Source of the DNA: an uncultured Bacteroidota bacterium
Lineage (GTDB): Bacteria; Bacteroidota; Bacteroidia; Flavobacteriales; Flavobacteriaceae
Assembly: GCA_902616905.1 (NCBI GenBank)
Contig: CACMUP010000006.1
Coordinates: 1 to 64,000 of the forward strand
Direction of reading: 5' to 3'
Length of the DNA stretch: 64,000 nt
Both the position numbers and the translations under genes were made by a program. Below are positions 504 through 6,932 of the stretch, in pieces. Positions within the stretch are counted from its first letter, which is position 1, and every line of letters starts with the position of its first letter. Under the pieces are notes generated by a model, which ran no database searches, was not told where the DNA came from, and saw nothing but the letters and a program-made list of their open reading frames with translations.

Positions 504-511
504 TATTTTTG
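504..511 (+). promoter_or_regulatory. Bacteroidota -7 promoter element of the trp operon (TATTTTTG)
   Basis: TATTTTTG matches the Bacteroidota consensus TAnnTTTG exactly. The last G is 6 bases before the trpL ATG, so a transcript starting the usual few bases downstream would begin at or just before that ATG, giving a leaderless or nearly leaderless trpL mRNA. I do not see a good TTG at the -33 position. The motif is short and the genome is AT-rich, so chance occurrence is possible; its position just before a convincing leader peptide raises its credibility. Confidence 0.5.
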
Positions 512-517
512 GTTCCA

Positions 518-565
518 ATGAAAAACTATAATGTAAAAAGCTGGTGGCACAATAATGATTCCTAA
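518..565 (+). CDS. trpL: trp operon leader peptide (15 aa, tandem Trp codons)
   Basis: A 15-codon frame beginning ATG AAA AAC TAT reads MKNYNVKSWWHNNDS and ends in TAA at 563-565. Two consecutive TGG codons (542-547) sit 74 bases upstream of the terminator-like hairpin that precedes trpE. Tandem Trp codons followed at once by mutually exclusive hairpins and a U-run are the signature of ribosome-mediated transcription attenuation as known from enterobacterial trpL. Trp is otherwise rare in short random frames in this AT-rich DNA. There is no Shine-Dalgarno sequence, which is normal for this phylum. It is too short for ordinary gene callers. Confidence 0.82.
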   Translation: MKNYNVKSWWHNNDS

Positions 566-615
566 TCATTGTGATGCATCTTTTTATGTTTTTAAACAAG
601 GCTTGTCATCACGAT
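548..615 (+). promoter_or_regulatory. trp attenuator: anti-antiterminator (1:2) and antiterminator (2:3) hairpins
   Basis: Segment 1:2 pairs CACAAT (548-553) plus GATT (557-560) with AATC (564-567) plus ATTGTG (568-573), with a 3-base bulge. Its loop holds the trpL stop codon. Segment 2:3 pairs 568-576 (ATTGTGATG) with 607-615 (CATCACGAT), nine pairs including one G-U. A ribosome stalled on the Trp codons at 542-547 would cover segment 1 and free segment 2 to pair with 3; a ribosome reaching the stop would cover segment 2 and let the terminator form. Unlike the E. coli case, the antiterminator pairs with the terminator loop rather than with its 5' arm, so exclusion would be topological. Pairings are seen in the sequence; the mechanism is inferred. 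Confidence 0.72.
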
Positions 616-626
616 AAGCCTTTTTT
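598..626 (+). terminator. Intrinsic terminator of the trp attenuator
   Basis: AAGGCTT (598-604) and AAGCCTT (616-622) form a perfect 7-bp stem around an 11-base loop, followed by a run of T through 626. It lies 13 bases before the trpE ATG and downstream of the trpL stop. Being placed between promoter and first structural gene, it makes sense only as a regulated terminator, or as the end of the upstream YceI-like transcript. Confidence 0.78.
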
Positions 627-639
627 AATTGAGTAAATT

Positions 640-2040
640 ATGAAAAAGTTTGAATTAAATATTAAATACAAAAAAATACTCGCAGATACAGTTACGCCTG
701 TTAGTGTTTATTTGAAACTTAGAGATGTATTCCCTCATTCTTTACTTTTGGAGAGTAGTGATTACCATGCCAACAATAAAAATTTTTCATATATATGTTG
801 TAACCCGATTGCTTCTTTCGAATTAAAAAATGGATTACTTACTATAGAAATGCCAAATGGTGAGATTTCATCTGAAAATATTACAAATGAAACTGATATT
901 CCTCAAAGAATTCATGATTTTTCACAAAAATTTAAATGCAAAAGCTTACCATTTAAATTTATTGCTAATGGGATTTTTGGTTACATTTCACATGAAGCTG
1001 TAGAATATTTTGACAGCATAGAAATTAACAAAAAAAAATCTGGATTTAATATTCCTGAAATCTATTATGCCGTATATCAAAACATAATTGCAATCAGTTT
1101 ATTTAATCATGAAGCATATTTATTTTCAAATATTTATGCTGGTTCACATAATCTAGAGGAGATAGAGGTTCTTCTTAATTCAAAAAAAAATAGCTTATTT
1201 AAATTTCAAAAAATAGGTGATAAAAAATCTAACCTTACCGATATAGAATTCATAAACTTTGTGAAAAAAGCAAAAGAGCACTGTTTTCGTGGTGATGTTT
1301 TTCAATTAGTACTTTCGAGAAGATTTTTTCAAAATTTTAAAGGAGATGAGTTTAATGTTTATAGAACTCTTCGTTCAATAAATCCATCCCCTTATTTATT
1401 TTTCTTTGATTATGGTGATTTTAAAATCTTTGGAAGTTCACCTGAAGCGCAGCTAATAGTCCAAGATGGGAAAGCAGAAATACATCCTATTGCTGGTACA
1501 TTTAAAAAAACTGGTGATGATAAAAAAGATTTGATATCTGCAAAAGAATTAGCAAAAGATCCAAAAGAGAATAGTGAACATGTGATGCTAGTAGATCTAG
1601 CTCGCAATGATTTAAGCAGAAATGGAACGAACGTCTTAGTAGAAAAAAATAGAGAAATTCAGTTTTATTCACATGTAATTCACTTAGTCTCAAAAGTGAC
1701 TTGTAAAATGAAAACTATGACAAATACATTTAGAGTTGTAGCTGATACTTTTCCAGCTGGAACTTTGAGTGGAGCCCCAAAACATAAAGCCCTCCAATTA
1801 ATAGATAAATATGAAAAAACAAAAAGAAATTTTTATGGTGGAGCAATAGGTTATATGGATTTTAACGGGAATTTTAATCACGCAATTATAATAAGATCTT
1901 TTTTAAGCTTAAATAACCAGCTTCATTATCAAGCAGGTGCAGGAATTGTTGCTGATTCAATACCTGAGAGTGAGTTACAAGAAGTGTATAATAAGTTAGG
2001 AGCTTTAGACAAAGCTCTAATTCAAGCTGAGAAAATTTAA
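640..2040 (+). CDS. trpE: Anthranilate synthase component I
   Basis: Converts chorismate with TrpG-supplied ammonia to anthranilate, the first committed step to tryptophan. At 466 residues it has normal length. The N-terminal domain carries the allosteric Trp-site motif LLES (residues 36-39) and NPSPYLF, so enzyme-level feedback inhibition is probably intact. The C-terminal chorismate-binding domain shows GSSPEAQL, HPIAGTFKKTGDD, DLARNDLSRNG, FPAGTLSGAPK and the closing YQAGAGIVADSIPESE. It is the first structural gene after the attenuator, and trpG follows after 2 bases. The absence of a fused TrpG domain and the neighbourhood distinguish it from PabB. Confidence 0.97.
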   Translation: MKKFELNIKYKKILADTVTPVSVYLKLRDVFPHSLLLESSDYHANNKNFSYICCNPIASFELKNGLLTIEMPNGEISSENITNETDIPQRIHDFSQKFKCKSLPFKFIANGIFGYISHEAVEYFDSIEINKKKSGFNIPEIYYAVYQNIIAISLFNHEAYLFSNIYAGSHNLEEIEVLLNSKKNSLFKFQKIGDKKSNLTDIEFINFVKKAKEHCFRGDVFQLVLSRRFFQNFKGDEFNVYRTLRSINPSPYLFFFDYGDFKIFGSSPEAQLIVQDGKAEIHPIAGTFKKTGDDKKDLISAKELAKDPKENSEHVMLVDLARNDLSRNGTNVLVEKNREIQFYSHVIHLVSKVTCKMKTMTNTFRVVADTFPAGTLSGAPKHKALQLIDKYEKTKRNFYGGAIGYMDFNGNFNHAIIIRSFLSLNNQLHYQAGAGIVADSIPESELQEVYNKLGALDKALIQAEKI

Positions 2041-2042
2041 TT

Positions 2043-2606
2043 ATGAAAAAAATATTTGTTATCGATAATTATGACTCATTCACCTATAACCTTGTACATT
2101 ATCTTGAGGACTTGGGTTGTATAGTAACTGTAAAAAGAAATGATAAATTTGAACTTAAAGAATTGAATGATTATCATTCAATATTACTATCACCAGGTCC
2201 TGGAATTCCAAATGAATCCGGTCTATTAAAAACTGCAATTAGACACTACGCTCCTTCAAAAAAAATATTAGGTATTTGTCTAGGGCAACAAGCAATAGGA
2301 GAGGTTTTTGGAGGAACTTTAATTAACTTAAAGAAGGTTTATCATGGAATTGCTACCCCGATTAAAATAATCAAAGAAGATTATTTATTCAAAAATCTCC
2401 CAGAGATATTTAACGTAGGTCGTTATCATTCATGGGTAGTTGATACCCCACTTCCCAAAGATTTAGTTGCAACATCTTTTGATGAAGAGGGTCAATTAAT
2501 GTCACTTAGACATATTGAATACGATGTTAGAGCTGTTCAGTATCATCCTGAATCAATACTAACTCCTTATGGAAAGAGAATATTAGAGAATTGGGTAAAT
2601 AGTTAA
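2043..2606 (+). CDS. trpG: Anthranilate synthase component II (glutamine amidotransferase)
   Basis: Hydrolyses glutamine and channels ammonia to TrpE. It is a 187-residue class I amidotransferase with oxyanion segment LSPGPGIPNESG, nucleophile Cys79 in GICLGQQ, and His168/Glu170 in VQYHPES, so the full triad is present. The HSWVVD segment and the position between trpE and trpD support TrpG. In many bacteria the same subunit also serves PabB; no pabB is visible here. Confidence 0.96.
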   Translation: MKKIFVIDNYDSFTYNLVHYLEDLGCIVTVKRNDKFELKELNDYHSILLSPGPGIPNESGLLKTAIRHYAPSKKILGICLGQQAIGEVFGGTLINLKKVYHGIATPIKIIKEDYLFKNLPEIFNVGRYHSWVVDTPLPKDLVATSFDEEGQLMSLRHIEYDVRAVQYHPESILTPYGKRILENWVNS

Positions 2607-2608
2607 AT

Positions 2609-3604
2609 ATGAAGGCTATACTAAATAGATTAATAAAGCACCAAAGCCTTAAAAGGGAGGAAGCTCGACAGATGATAATTAATATTGCTGATGACAAATA
2701 CAATACATCGCAAATCGCTTCTTTTCTTACGGTTTATATGATGAGAAGTATTACCCTAGAAGAACTTGATGGATTTCGATTAGCTCTTTTAGAATTATGC
2801 AATTCAATTAATGTAAATGAGTTTAATACAGTTGATCTTTGTGGAACAGGAGGGGATAATAAAGACACCTTTAACATTTCTACTATTTCTTCATTTATTG
2901 TTGCTGGCGCGGGGGTAAAAGTAACAAAACATGGTAATTATGGAGTTTCCTCAAGTTGTGGATCAAGTAATGTTTTGGAGGCACTAGGAATTAAATTTTC
3001 AAACAAAGAGGATCATTTAAAAAGATGTTTAGATAAAGCAGGTATTTGTATTCTTCATGCCCCTCTTTTTCACCCTGCTATGAAGAATGTAGCCCCTATT
3101 CGCCGTGAACTAGGGGTCAAAACTTTTTTTAATATGTTAGGCCCTCTTGTTAATCCATCATTCCCAAAAAATCAAATAACCGGTGTTTTTAATTTAGAGT
3201 TAGCTCGTTTGTATAACTACTTATTACAAAAAACAGATATTAACTTCACTATTTTATATGACTTAAACGGATATGACGAAATTTCTTTAACTGGAAACAC
3301 AAAAACCTTTAGTAAAAAAAGTGAAAGATTAATTAAATCAAAAGATTTTGGTCTAAATCGAGTGAATGAAACTGATATTTCAGGAGGAAAAAGTATTGAA
3401 TCATCAGCTAAAATTTTTATGGATATTATTCAAAATAAAGGGACTAAGGCTCAACACGACGTTGTTTGCGCAAATGCTGGAACAGCTATTTCAACTACTT
3501 TAAATTTATCTATTAGAGAAGGTTTTGAAAAAGCAATGGAATCATTAAAATCTGGAGATGCTTTTAAAGCATTCAATAAACTCAAAAAAATAAGTCATAA
3601 ATGA
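2609..3604 (+). CDS. trpD: Anthranilate phosphoribosyltransferase
   Basis: Transfers the phosphoribosyl group of PRPP to anthranilate. The 331-residue protein has the class signature CGTGGDNKDTFNIST near residue 80 for PRPP/Mg binding, KHGN and SSCGSSNVLE shortly after, and HPAMKNVAPIRRELGVKTFFN with the conserved basic residues that contact anthranilate. It starts 2 bases after trpG and its stop overlaps the trpC start by 4 bases (ATGA), pointing to translational coupling. Confidence 0.97.
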   Translation: MKAILNRLIKHQSLKREEARQMIINIADDKYNTSQIASFLTVYMMRSITLEELDGFRLALLELCNSINVNEFNTVDLCGTGGDNKDTFNISTISSFIVAGAGVKVTKHGNYGVSSSCGSSNVLEALGIKFSNKEDHLKRCLDKAGICILHAPLFHPAMKNVAPIRRELGVKTFFNMLGPLVNPSFPKNQITGVFNLELARLYNYLLQKTDINFTILYDLNGYDEISLTGNTKTFSKKSERLIKSKDFGLNRVNETDISGGKSIESSAKIFMDIIQNKGTKAQHDVVCANAGTAISTTLNLSIREGFEKAMESLKSGDAFKAFNKLKKISHK

Positions 3605-4386
3605 GTATTCTAGATCAAATAATAAAAGATAAAAAAATTGAAGTGTCAAAAAGAAAAAATATTTTTCCTGCTTCATATTGGGAAGCTTCTCCACTTTTTG
3701 ATAGGGCTACCAAATCTTTATCAGATAATCTTAGAAATAGTAAATCAGGAATAATAGCTGAATTTAAAAGACGTTCTCCCTCAAAAAAAAACATCAATAA
3801 TTCACTTTCTGTGATTGAAGTATCAGAAGGGTATGAAAATGCAGGGGTTTGCGGAATGTCAATTCTAACTGATGGAAAATACTTTGGAGGATCTTTGGAT
3901 GATATAAACCTCGCACGTTCAGTAACTAAATTTCCTTTATTAAGAAAAGAATTTATTATTGATGAATACCAAATTATTGAAGCCAAAGCCCACGGTGCTG
4001 ACGTAATATTGTTAATCGCATCTGTTTTAAATTATAAACAAATTAAAGACTTATCTTATTTGGCTAAAAAACTTGATTTAGAAATTTTACTAGAAGTGCA
4101 TAATCAAGAAGAATTAGAAATGTCCATAATGCCCTCCATTGACATGATAGGAGTCAATAATAGAAACTTAAAAAATTTTGAGGTTTCCCTCGATAATAGC
4201 AGAAAATTAGCTAGTAAAATTCCTGATGAATTTGTAAAAGTATCTGAGAGCGGGATAAATGAAGTAGCATCAATAAAAGAATTAATGAGTCATGGATATA
4301 AAGGTTTTTTGATTGGAGAAAATTTTATGATAACTGAAAACCCAGGCCTATCAGCATCGGAATTTATAAAAAAAATTAAAAGATGA
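3601..4386 (+). CDS. trpC: Indole-3-glycerol phosphate synthase
   Basis: Closes the indole ring from CdRP. It is a free-standing 261-residue TIM barrel. The phosphate/substrate motif AEFKRRSPSKK near residue 53, the LRKEFIIDEYQI segment, LLEVHN, the VNNRNLKNF strand and VSESGI near the C-terminus give all the usual active-site positions. It overlaps both trpD and trpF by 4 bases. Unlike E. coli, it is not fused to TrpF. Confidence 0.97.
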   Translation: MSILDQIIKDKKIEVSKRKNIFPASYWEASPLFDRATKSLSDNLRNSKSGIIAEFKRRSPSKKNINNSLSVIEVSEGYENAGVCGMSILTDGKYFGGSLDDINLARSVTKFPLLRKEFIIDEYQIIEAKAHGADVILLIASVLNYKQIKDLSYLAKKLDLEILLEVHNQEELEMSIMPSIDMIGVNNRNLKNFEVSLDNSRKLASKIPDEFVKVSESGINEVASIKELMSHGYKGFLIGENFMITENPGLSASEFIKKIKR

Positions 4387-5006
4387 AGTTGAAAGTATGT
4401 GGTATGCGTGAACTAGAAAATATTTCAGCTTTATCTGAACTATACCCCAATTATATAGGTTTTATCTTTTGGTCTGAATCAAGTCGTTTTGTAGATAAAA
4501 AAACTCCTTCCCTTGACAAAAAAATTATTAAAACGGGTGTTTTTGTTGATGCTACTTTTGATTATATTCTTACTAAAATTAAAGACCATCAATTAGATGC
4601 AGTTCAACTTCATGGACAGGAATCTTGTTCTTATTGTAAAGTGATCAAAGATTATGGATTGAAAGTTATTAAATCTTTCTCTATAAAAAATAGATTTGAT
4701 TTTAATACTCTTAAAGATTATGAAAATTCATGTGATTATTACCTTTTTGATACTAAAGGAAAGTTACCAGGAGGAAATGGTTTCACCTTTGATTGGAAAA
4801 TATTGAACAAATATCCTTCACAAAAACCTTTTTTTTTAAGCGGTGGTATTGGAGTTGACAATCTAAATGAAATTAAAAAACTAGTGAAAACAAAATTACC
4901 TATACATGCTATTGATGTAAATAGTAAATTTGAAACTGCTCCGGGTAATAAAAATATTGAATTATTGAAAAAATTTAAAAAGGAAATTGATGAATTACAA
5001 CGTTGA
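4383..5006 (+). CDS. trpF: Phosphoribosylanthranilate isomerase
   Basis: Amadori isomerisation of PRA to CdRP. It is 207 residues long with N-terminal KVCGM (general-base Cys7), VQLHGQES, the phosphate-binding LSGGIGVDN and the terminal DVNSKFETAPGNKN that corresponds to the family DVSSGVE-PGxKD motif. It overlaps trpC at the start and the beginning of trpB by 17 bases at the end. All features fit an active enzyme. Confidence 0.95.
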   Translation: MKLKVCGMRELENISALSELYPNYIGFIFWSESSRFVDKKTPSLDKKIIKTGVFVDATFDYILTKIKDHQLDAVQLHGQESCSYCKVIKDYGLKVIKSFSIKNRFDFNTLKDYENSCDYYLFDTKGKLPGGNGFTFDWKILNKYPSQKPFFLSGGIGVDNLNEIKKLVKTKLPIHAIDVNSKFETAPGNKNIELLKKFKKEIDELQR

Positions 5007-6171
5007 TGAAAGAGGTTATTATGGTGATTTTGGAGGGGCTTTTATCCCAGAAATGTTATACCCAAATATCTCAGAATTGAAAAAAAACTACATAAAGATT
5101 TCAAATGAACCTGGTTTTAAAAAGGAGTTTGATAGTTTATTAAAAGAATATGTTGGAAGGCCTACTCCTTTATATTATGCGAAAAGATTATCAAATAGAT
5201 ATAATTGCAGAATTTATTTAAAAAGGGAAGATCTTTGCCATACAGGCGCTCACAAAGTCAATAATACTGTAGGTCAAATTCTTTTAGCAAAACGTCTGGG
5301 CAAAAGTCGTATCATAGCAGAAACAGGAGCAGGACAGCATGGAGTTGCTACTGCAACTGTGTGTGCTTTGATGGGAATTAAATGCGTTGTATATATGGGG
5401 CAATTGGATATCAAACGTCAGGCCCCCAATGTAGCAAGAATGAAGATGTTAGGAGCTGAAGTACGATCTGCTGAATCAGGAAGTAAAACATTAAAAGATG
5501 CTACAAATGAGGCTATTCGAGATTGGATTAATAATCCTGAAGATACTCACTATATAATTGGTTCTGTTGTTGGGCCTCACCCTTACCCTGATATGGTTGC
5601 TCGTTTTCAATCAATTATAAGTGAAGAAACTAAGTGGCAATTAAATAAATATGAAAAAAGAGATTATCCTGATTTTTTAATTGCATGTGTTGGAGGTGGA
5701 AGTAATGCAGCAGGTCTGTATTATCACTATCTTAATGATGAACGTGTAAAAATTATTGCTGTTGAAGCGGCAGGAAAGGGAATCGATTCTGGTGAAAGTG
5801 CTGCAACTTCTGCACTTGGAAAAGAAGGAATTATTCATGGGAGCAAGACTCTTTTAATGCAAACTTCAGATGGACAAATAACGGAACCATATTCAATCTC
5901 AGCAGGTCTTGACTATCCTGGAGTAGGTCCGATGCATGCCCATTTATTTCGGTCTAGGCGTGCGGAATTTATCTCAATTCCTGATCAGGAAGCAATGGAC
6001 TGGGGTTTAACTCTTTCTCAACTTGAGGGAATTATACCTGCAATCGAAACAGCACATGCTTTTGCAATTTTAGATTCAAAAAAATTTAAGCCAAGTGACG
6101 TTATCGTTTTTAATTGCTCTGGTCGTGGGGATAAAGATTTATCAACATATATTGACTATTTCAAATTATAA
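4990..6171 (+). CDS. trpB: Tryptophan synthase beta chain
   Basis: PLP enzyme condensing indole with serine, partner of TrpA. I chose the ATG at 4990 (MNYNVDERGYYGDFGGAF) over a TTG one codon earlier because it gives the usual family start; the protein is 393 residues. PLP lysine is Lys89 in HTGAHKVNN; the phosphate loop is GGGSNAAG and the C-terminal NCSGRGDKD is complete. The internal ETGAGQHGVATATVC is characteristic of the TrpB1 class. The stop overlaps the trpA start by one base (TAATG). Confidence 0.97.
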   Translation: MNYNVDERGYYGDFGGAFIPEMLYPNISELKKNYIKISNEPGFKKEFDSLLKEYVGRPTPLYYAKRLSNRYNCRIYLKREDLCHTGAHKVNNTVGQILLAKRLGKSRIIAETGAGQHGVATATVCALMGIKCVVYMGQLDIKRQAPNVARMKMLGAEVRSAESGSKTLKDATNEAIRDWINNPEDTHYIIGSVVGPHPYPDMVARFQSIISEETKWQLNKYEKRDYPDFLIACVGGGSNAAGLYYHYLNDERVKIIAVEAAGKGIDSGESAATSALGKEGIIHGSKTLLMQTSDGQITEPYSISAGLDYPGVGPMHAHLFRSRRAEFISIPDQEAMDWGLTLSQLEGIIPAIETAHAFAILDSKKFKPSDVIVFNCSGRGDKDLSTYIDYFKL

Positions 6172-6932
6172 TGAACCGAATAGATAATAAATTCAAAGAG
6201 AAAAAAAACCTGTTATCTGTATATTTTTCAGCTGGCTATCCTCAACTTGAGGATACAGTCACTATAATAAAAAATCTCCAAGCTTCTGGTGTTGATATGA
6301 TTGAAATTGGTCTTCCTTTTTCTGATCCATTAGCTGACGGGCCTACTATTCAAAAAAGTTCAACGAAAGCTTTAAATAATGGAATGACCACCGAAAAACT
6401 TTTTACTCAACTTGAAAACATCAGAGATCAAATTGATATTCCCCTGATCATAATGGGTTATTTTAATCCAATGATTCAATTTGGAATTAAAAAATTTTGT
6501 CATCGCTGTAATGAAATTGGAATTGACGGTATAATTATTCCTGATTTACCTGTTGAAGTATATCATGAAGATTATAAAAGTGTTTTCGACAACTATGGAC
6601 TATACAATATGTTTTTAATAACTCCTCAAACTTCAAATGAACGTATTCGTTATATTGATAAAGTCTCAAATGGTTTTATATATATGGTCAGCAGCTCAAG
6701 TGTTACAGGGGCCAAAAATACATTTCAAAAGAATCAAATCGAATATTTTAAAAGGGTTGATGACATGAAATTAAAGACACCTAAAATCATTGGTTTTGGG
6801 ATAAGCAATTCTGAAACTTATAATGCTGCAATTAGATATTCTGAAGGGGCTATAATTGGTTCAGCATTTATAAAATTTTTAGAAAAACAAGGGGTTAATA
6901 AAATCGGCTCATTTGTTTCCTCTATTAGGTAA
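6171..6932 (+). CDS. trpA: Tryptophan synthase alpha chain
   Basis: Cleaves indole-3-glycerol phosphate and passes indole to TrpB. The 253-residue TIM barrel has catalytic Glu45 and Asp56 in the segment IEIGLPFSDPLADGPTIQ, the IIPDLP loop, and the phosphate-binding GFGISN and GAIIGSAF motifs. It is the last gene of the seven-gene operon, which therefore has the order EGDCFBA with every junction at 2 bases or overlapping. No convincing intrinsic terminator follows in the 81-base gap. Confidence 0.97.
   Translation: MNRIDNKFKEKKNLLSVYFSAGYPQLEDTVTIIKNLQASGVDMIEIGLPFSDPLADGPTIQKSSTKALNNGMTTEKLFTQLENIRDQIDIPLIIMGYFNPMIQFGIKKFCHRCNEIGIDGIIIPDLPVEVYHEDYKSVFDNYGLYNMFLITPQTSNERIRYIDKVSNGFIYMVSSSSVTGAKNTFQKNQIEYFKRVDDMKLKTPKIIGFGISNSETYNAAIRYSEGAIIGSAFIKFLEKQGVNKIGSFVSSIR

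Follow-up and report, generated by a model that had tools for sequence, protein, structure and literature searches.

The trp leader of this marine flavobacterium, a switch standing before its tryptophan genes, raises the question of how an intrinsic terminator can be disarmed by a strand whose predicted partner is the terminator loop. We analysed the window, by which we mean the whole 64,000-nucleotide stretch of contig CACMUP010000006.1, for which a sequence-only reading had proposed trp attenuation. Checks of sequence and coordinates placed trpL, its Trp codons and stop, the antiterminator strand and the terminator where that reading had put them (Table 1). TrpD, TrpC, TrpB, TrpA and the TrpG/PabA subfamily exceeded the curated NCBIfam cut-offs, the best TrpE and TrpF models fell below theirs, and the ORF upstream of the trp leader gave a weak YceI-family match.

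Table 1. Positions of the leader, its pairing strands and the downstream genes in the window.
Feature	Position	Strand	Remarks
Predicted sigma-A −7 box TATTTTTG (TAnnTTTG)	504-511	+	6 nt before trpL ATG
trpL leader peptide MKNYNVKSWWHNNDS, 15 codons	518-565	+	ATG at 518, stop TAA at 563-565
Tandem Trp codons (sensor)	542-547	+	Read from the sequence
Strand 1 CACAATAATGATT	548-560	+	Partner of strand 2 (fold); would be masked while a ribosome waits at the Trp codons
Strand 2	564-576	+	Antiterminator strand 568-576, AUUGUGAUG
Spacer UCUU	579-582	+	In the extended antiterminator, predicted partner of AAGG at the base of the terminator 5′ arm (598-601)
Intrinsic terminator	598-622	+	10-bp stem, 5-nt loop AUCAC, arms 598-607 and 613-622
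Antiterminator target CAUCACGAU	607-615	+	1 nt of the 5′ arm, the whole 5-nt loop, 3 nt of the 3′ arm
T-run	621-626	+	End of terminator
trpE, trpG, trpD, trpC, trpF, trpB, trpA	640-6932	+	ORFs and NCBIfam; presumed regulated operon

The predicted structures contain mutually exclusive 1:2, antiterminator and terminator pairings. Within the 1:2 hairpin, positions 552-560 pair with 564-572, and an outer stem joins 530-540 with 580-590. The stop codon had been assigned to the loop of this hairpin; in the predicted fold the loop spans 561-563, and the stop begins there but continues into the 3′ side, preceding the antiterminator strand. The terminator before trpE is likewise present, but not as the 7-bp stem with an 11-nt loop first described: three apical pairs had been missed (GUC pairing with GAU, including one G-U), and the full hairpin has a predicted energy of −12.8 kcal/mol. 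Because the stem has 10 bp, the antiterminator (568-576 with 607-615, a 9-bp helix with a stacking score of −13.2 kcal/mol) would directly take bases of its top three pairs. The RNA from 518 to 630 has a fold energy of −31.2 kcal/mol, whereas shuffled sequences average −16.6 (sd 3.2; z −4.56; none of 200 as good). The 9-bp helix alone is moderately improbable, being equalled by 53 of 5000 dinucleotide shuffles of this one sequence, or about 1%, so that an ordinary short ORF ahead of an unrelated terminator has to be considered. Given this moderate figure for one sequence, the claim is carried by comparison across relatives.

The loci compared came from several overlapping collections. A TrpE search of 60 relatives gave any match in 57, the best 30 of which were used as loci, and a search of 149 family genomes matched 134 at 1e-90; 100 upstream stretches were retrieved from the TrpE searches and supplemented with 65 named loci. 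Named relatives close to the window trpE belong to Candidatus Arcticimaribacter and to Flavobacteriaceae. A further 26 class loci were chosen by the Rfam model RF01692 itself (26 of 395 genomes, 17 above cut-off, with filters that lose weak matches). One short locus that was not placed (L081) was left out. Including the RF01692 loci, 237 leaders were collected, of which 234 were usable and 219 distinct after removal of 15 duplicates; some genomes occur under two identifiers, and identical stretches were dropped while near-identical ones were kept.

A leader was defined as an ORF of 8-45 codons with adjacent Trp codons (WW) upstream of trpE. Of 222 trpE upstream regions, 211 contain such an ORF, as do 3 when the reverse strand is scanned and 1.8 after mononucleotide shuffling. 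Other doubled residues (HH, CC, MM, YY, QQ, PP) occurred in 8-38 of the 222, and FF in 151 in this A/T-rich DNA. Among the distinct leaders, for which WW was the search criterion, 56 carry two Trp codons and 163 carry three. The terminator scan succeeded in 236 of 237 leaders, two of these being miscalled (L182, L185), and the one locus where it gave none (L062) has a terminator visible by eye. The same trpL peptide recurs in one relative (L002), whose TrpE is 98% identical to that of the window. These frequencies, together with the fold energy given above and the retention of both Trp codons and stems in relatives, on which the sequence-only reading had staked its case, make the chance arrangement a negligible prospect.

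Among the 11 upstream regions without a WW leader, one had no upstream DNA (L233) and two had only 168 nt (L208) and 73 nt (L248). Four others (L016, L198, L229, L243) have, by eye, a short trpE leader in which WW is replaced by CW, W, WC or WCW, and three of these four retain the GGCTTGTC terminator. Part of the terminator motif is present in L249, and no trp leader was found upstream of trpE in L162, L186 and L209. At locus L043 the trp leader precedes trpB (64% identical to the window TrpB) with trpE further on; operons of this kind are therefore missed by a search upstream of TrpE alone. A search of the own genome for a second copy of the terminator motif gave one unconvincing site with 2 mismatches, and the reversed control also gave one.

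The window thus combines a conserved leader ORF carrying codons for the operon's amino acid with an intrinsic terminator before the first gene, the features by which amino-acid attenuators are recognised. The TrpR and TRAP families gave no match in the 21 genomes searched for each, of which 8 are 90% or more complete and the own genome 68%, and no T-box reached the gathering score within the window. We conclude that the element is very probably a ribosome-mediated transcription attenuator of the trp operon. The leader, helices, co-changing partners and codon-to-strand-2 register were established by sequence comparison, from which ribosome occupancy, termination and antitermination are extrapolated, and attenuation by a translating ribosome, as first proposed, remains the predicted mode of control.

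To locate the antiterminator target, we took each locus in turn and scored the strongest uninterrupted helix joining the terminator to the stretch that follows the Trp codons; contiguous helices were used because RNA duplexfold chained helices and hid the position of the target. The strongest helix covered the loop and the top of the 3′ arm in 187 of 219 leaders, mainly the 5′ arm in 16, the loop and 5′ arm in 14, and other positions in 2, which bears out the proposal that the core grips the terminator loop rather than its 5′ arm. When loci were assigned by hand to groups according to origin, under a slightly different rule from that of the overall count, the window's genus and nearest loci (36) comprised 29 with loop and 3′ arm, 5 with mainly the 5′ arm and 2 others; the corresponding loop and 3′-arm count was 147 of 158 in other Flavobacteriaceae and unassigned loci. 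The 25 loci from other Bacteroidota families were divided between loop and 3′ arm (12) and mainly the 5′ arm (10). Taken singly, only 111 of the 219 loci have a helix stronger than 95% of 100 shuffles.

Across loci, the two strands were found to track each other. The usual pair, UCGUGA with UCACGA, is strongly conserved in Flavobacteriaceae, and partners that change together in other lineages include GUCGUAAG with CUUGCGAC (L036), GGAUUCAG with CUGAAUCC (L177), ACCGGAU with AUCCGGU (L183) and GUUGAACAGU with ACUGUUCAAC (L239). For 61 distinct terminator tops, native partners averaged −12.23 kcal/mol against −10.24 (sd 0.27) for swapped ones, with none of 5000 permutations as good; excluding the UCACGA type left 41 tops at −11.98 against −9.77 (sd 0.33), again with none of 5000. 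These permutations ignore phylogeny, and the native partner, with a median rank of 10 of 61, is not always the best. The 1:2 helix behaved similarly (59 distinct strands 2; native −7.17 against −5.72, sd 0.23; 0 of 3000). In a fixed register, with strand 2 aligned independently of the terminator, 80.0% of cells pair against 78.4% after permutation (0 of 1000), and sliding the register by 1-3 bases reduces this to 16-50%; for the 57 variant strands only, the values are 62.8% and 59.9% (42 of 1000). Near-invariance of both strands in the main flavobacterial class keeps this co-variation small. By sequence comparison, the strand 2/terminator pairing within Flavobacteriaceae is a matter of conservation more than of co-variation, and the partner-swap signal derives mostly from divergent lineages.

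The strong sequence conservation of UCGUGA and UCACGA in Flavobacteriaceae might also reflect a protein-binding site, or a pseudoknot or kissing contact between strand 2 and the terminator loop that strengthens termination, the order of strand 2, 5′ arm, loop and 3′ arm being that of an H-type pseudoknot. The helix, however, uses at least one 3′-arm base required by the terminator in 190 of 219 loci; in other families the two strands vary in concert, something that a protein site does not call for; and under a termination-strengthening contact, starvation would reduce expression. We regard this explanation as highly improbable.

A more serious alternative is that attenuation here is classical, with pairing to the 5′ arm as the functional antiterminator and the loop helix incidental. 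The predicted stalled fold of the window pairs six 5′-arm bases besides the core, and native spacers fold better than shuffled ones across the set (−12.7 against −10.7 kcal/mol). On average 5.6 of 8.9 arm bases are paired upstream, but this is barely above the 5.0 of spacer-shuffled controls, and the loop/3′-arm helix is the one that is conserved and tracks its partner. A separate second helix, from the downstream flank of strand 2 to the 5′ arm, was considered and rejected, as it was not enriched (0.47 against 0.65 in shuffled sequences; 197 loci). The 16 leaders with a mainly 5′-arm core, which include Arcicella loci and those of family f55, would nevertheless fit the classical explanation, as would the his attenuators described below. 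On balance we consider it unlikely.

In family f55, three loci (L053, L055, L056) carry classical 5′-arm trp antiterminators, with GGCAGCCT pairing with GGGTTGCC in two of them. The target thus appears to have moved at least once within Bacteroidota.

The his operons provided an internal control. We scored 41 HisG loci from the family and from close or order-level relatives in the same way as the trp loci. In 40 of the 41, a terminator accompanies a leader peptide with paired His codons that lies 92-217 nt ahead of hisG; the chance control for this leader is weak, since an HH ORF also occurs on 23 of 41 reverse strands (a longer stretch), 13 of these with at least three His. In 38 of 40 his leaders the core of the antiterminator falls mainly on the 5′ arm, and in the other 2 (L274, L282) on the loop/3′ arm; two of the 40 (L289 and L290) have identical leaders and terminators. 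A frequent his pair is CTCAAGCG with CGTTTGAG. The own genome has such a leader (L273) on contig C7 at about 20-21 kb, 123 nt before hisG, encoding the peptide MKQKKHHNHQNLYYSNVI. Since his loci score as 5′-arm, the scoring method alone does not generate the loop result for trp. In these predicted structures, one family is seen to use two topologies, loop/3′ arm for trp and the classical 5′ arm for his.

Returning to loop capture at trp, we propose the following sequence of events. When Trp-tRNA is scarce, a ribosome would wait at the two UGG codons and cover strand 1, leaving strand 2 free. As the terminator loop emerges from RNA polymerase, strand 2 would pair with it and with the adjoining 3′-arm bases, and part of the 5′ arm would be held by weaker pairs; the terminator would then be unable to close, and the operon would be transcribed. 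When Trp-tRNA is ample, the ribosome would reach the stop codon, and either its footprint would lie over strand 2 or the 1:2 hairpin would re-form after release. With strand 2 covered or sequestered, the terminator would fold and transcription would end near 626.

The register of codons and strand 2 is consistent with this scheme. Strand 2 starts 19-25 nt (5-95%, median 21) past the first base of the last Trp codon, and its position varies less relative to that codon (sd 2.6 nt) than relative to the start codon (3.9) or the stop (7.2). The available text of one source puts the reach of a ribosome footprint at 12 nt past the A-site codon (PMC4833913). With this value, in 215 of 219 leaders strand 2 starts beyond a ribosome that stands on the last Trp codon, and in 203 of 219 a ribosome at the stop covers it completely. 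Of the 219 leaders, 91 have their stop codon entirely within strand 2, 67 before it, 50 after it, and 11 in partial overlap with it. In nascent folds with the ribosome masked, the core antiterminator forms in 215 of 219; in ribosome-free folds, strand 2 lies in the 1:2 hairpin in 140 of 219 and on the terminator top in 64 of 219.

For the window itself, when a ribosome occupies the Trp codons and the RNA ends at 615-619, an extended hairpin is the best fold (−12.4 to −12.6 kcal/mol), in which, besides the core, 598-601 pair with 579-582 and 604-605 with 577-578. Once the RNA reaches nt 622, the terminator fold is better by 1.3, at −13.7 to −13.9 kcal/mol. The full-length terminator is thus thermodynamically favoured even with a stalled ribosome, and antitermination would have to be kinetic. 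An E. coli-type core on the 5′ arm is absent from the trp leader of the window, and weaker 5′-arm pairing is predicted. The earlier wording that the antiterminator pairs "not the 5′ arm" is therefore right for most of the core but too strong for the stalled fold as a whole. Similarly, the proposed exclusion would not be purely topological; the predicted 5′-arm pairing makes it partly an ordinary competition. According to these folds, loop capture, the loss of three apical pairs and a degree of 5′-arm pairing would all contribute to exclusion.

We also considered where the transcript begins. Of 216 leaders, 203 have a TAnnTTTG box no more than 60 nt from their start, compared with 6% of shuffles, and TTG stands exactly 22 nt before the box in 94 of the 203, a count without control. 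Box and start codon are separated by 4-6 nt in 74 of 216 leaders and in 29 of 29 loci with a called leader in the genus set (L001-L030 minus L016); the his peptide of the own genome also lies 6 nt from a TATATTTG box. The available descriptions of F. johnsoniae promoters place transcription starts 4 or 5 nt past this box. Applied to the window, that rule gives a predicted start at 516 or 517, 1 or 2 nt before the AUG, and trpL in this genus probably starts within two bases of the transcript 5′ end. The promoter-like box likewise argues against a transcript start downstream of 565. In the accessible parts of the respective sources, leaderless mRNAs make up 5.5% in F. psychrophilum (2021 transcriptome), 5′ UTRs shorter than 10 nt make up about 3.7% in B. 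thetaiotaomicron, and members of the phylum Bacteroidota are described as naturally lacking Shine-Dalgarno sites.

Taken together, we consider it probable that Bacteroidota trp leaders use loop-capture attenuation, in which strand 2 seizes the loop and the first 3′-arm bases before the terminator zips; that a ribosome finishing the peptide blocks antitermination directly where the stop lies inside strand 2; that the leaders of the window's genus are leaderless or nearly so; and that his operons of the same family keep the classical 5′-arm arrangement. If this is true, the terminator of a textbook RNA switch can be disarmed in more than one way, and the trp and his operons of one bacterial family differ in the way used. 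The leaders also offer natural variants for asking whether an intrinsic terminator can be blocked via its loop, a question of co-transcriptional folding, and translation of their peptides probably begins close to the 5′ end, in a phylum naturally without Shine-Dalgarno sites.

Among described RNAs, the element most resembles Bacteroid-trp (RF01692), which also precedes trp genes and has a Trp-codon leader peptide, a hairpin after the codons and AAGGCUUGUC at its 3′ end. The window aligns to positions 1-131 of the 131-position model with 33.1 bits, under the gathering cut-off of 49, and none of 20 genus loci reaches that cut-off. Loci above it (e.g. L034, L039, L040) share the window's terminator sequence and have a UCGUGA strand 2. 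The model stops inside the terminator 5′ arm, so that loop, 3′ arm and antiterminator lie outside it; it misses leaders plainly of this kind, and an extended model would find more. Compared with the E. coli trp leader, tandem Trp codons, a 1:2 hairpin, an antiterminator and a terminator are shared; in E. coli, strand 2 pairs with the terminator 5′ arm, whereas the core of the window antiterminator pairs with the loop and 3′ arm. The E. coli-type model RF00513 (Trp_leader) gives the window 18.2 bits against a cut-off of 41. The leaderless trpL of Sinorhizobium and Streptomyces is alike in that its leader peptide begins at the 5′ end of the transcript or close to it; their promoters and antiterminators are different, and the window's start is deduced from the box rule.

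The sequence-only reading had been unsure whether such attenuation was described in Flavobacteriia, but the kind is already on record. Bacteroid-trp was published by Weinberg et al. 2010 (PMC2864571), where a search of the main text with several terms gave the motif only in a table; the available text of a 2019 paper notes it ahead of the trp genes of F. psychrophilum and compares it with attenuation, and that of the 2021 transcriptome of the same species describes indications that leader peptides act as attenuators in front of amino-acid operons. Our literature search, with most subscription papers and supplements outside its scope, found no published description of the loop/3′-arm topology; Lopatovskaya et al. 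2010 may cover Bacteroidota. In Actinobacteria, trp attenuators with two or three UGG codons and a terminator are reported in the accessible text of Seliverstov 2005 (PMC1262725), where they are called classical, with gGCC-rGCy-GGCC triples and sequences unrelated to those of the window. The attenuator in the window is thus of a kind already known, and what varies is the predicted way in which its terminator is disarmed.
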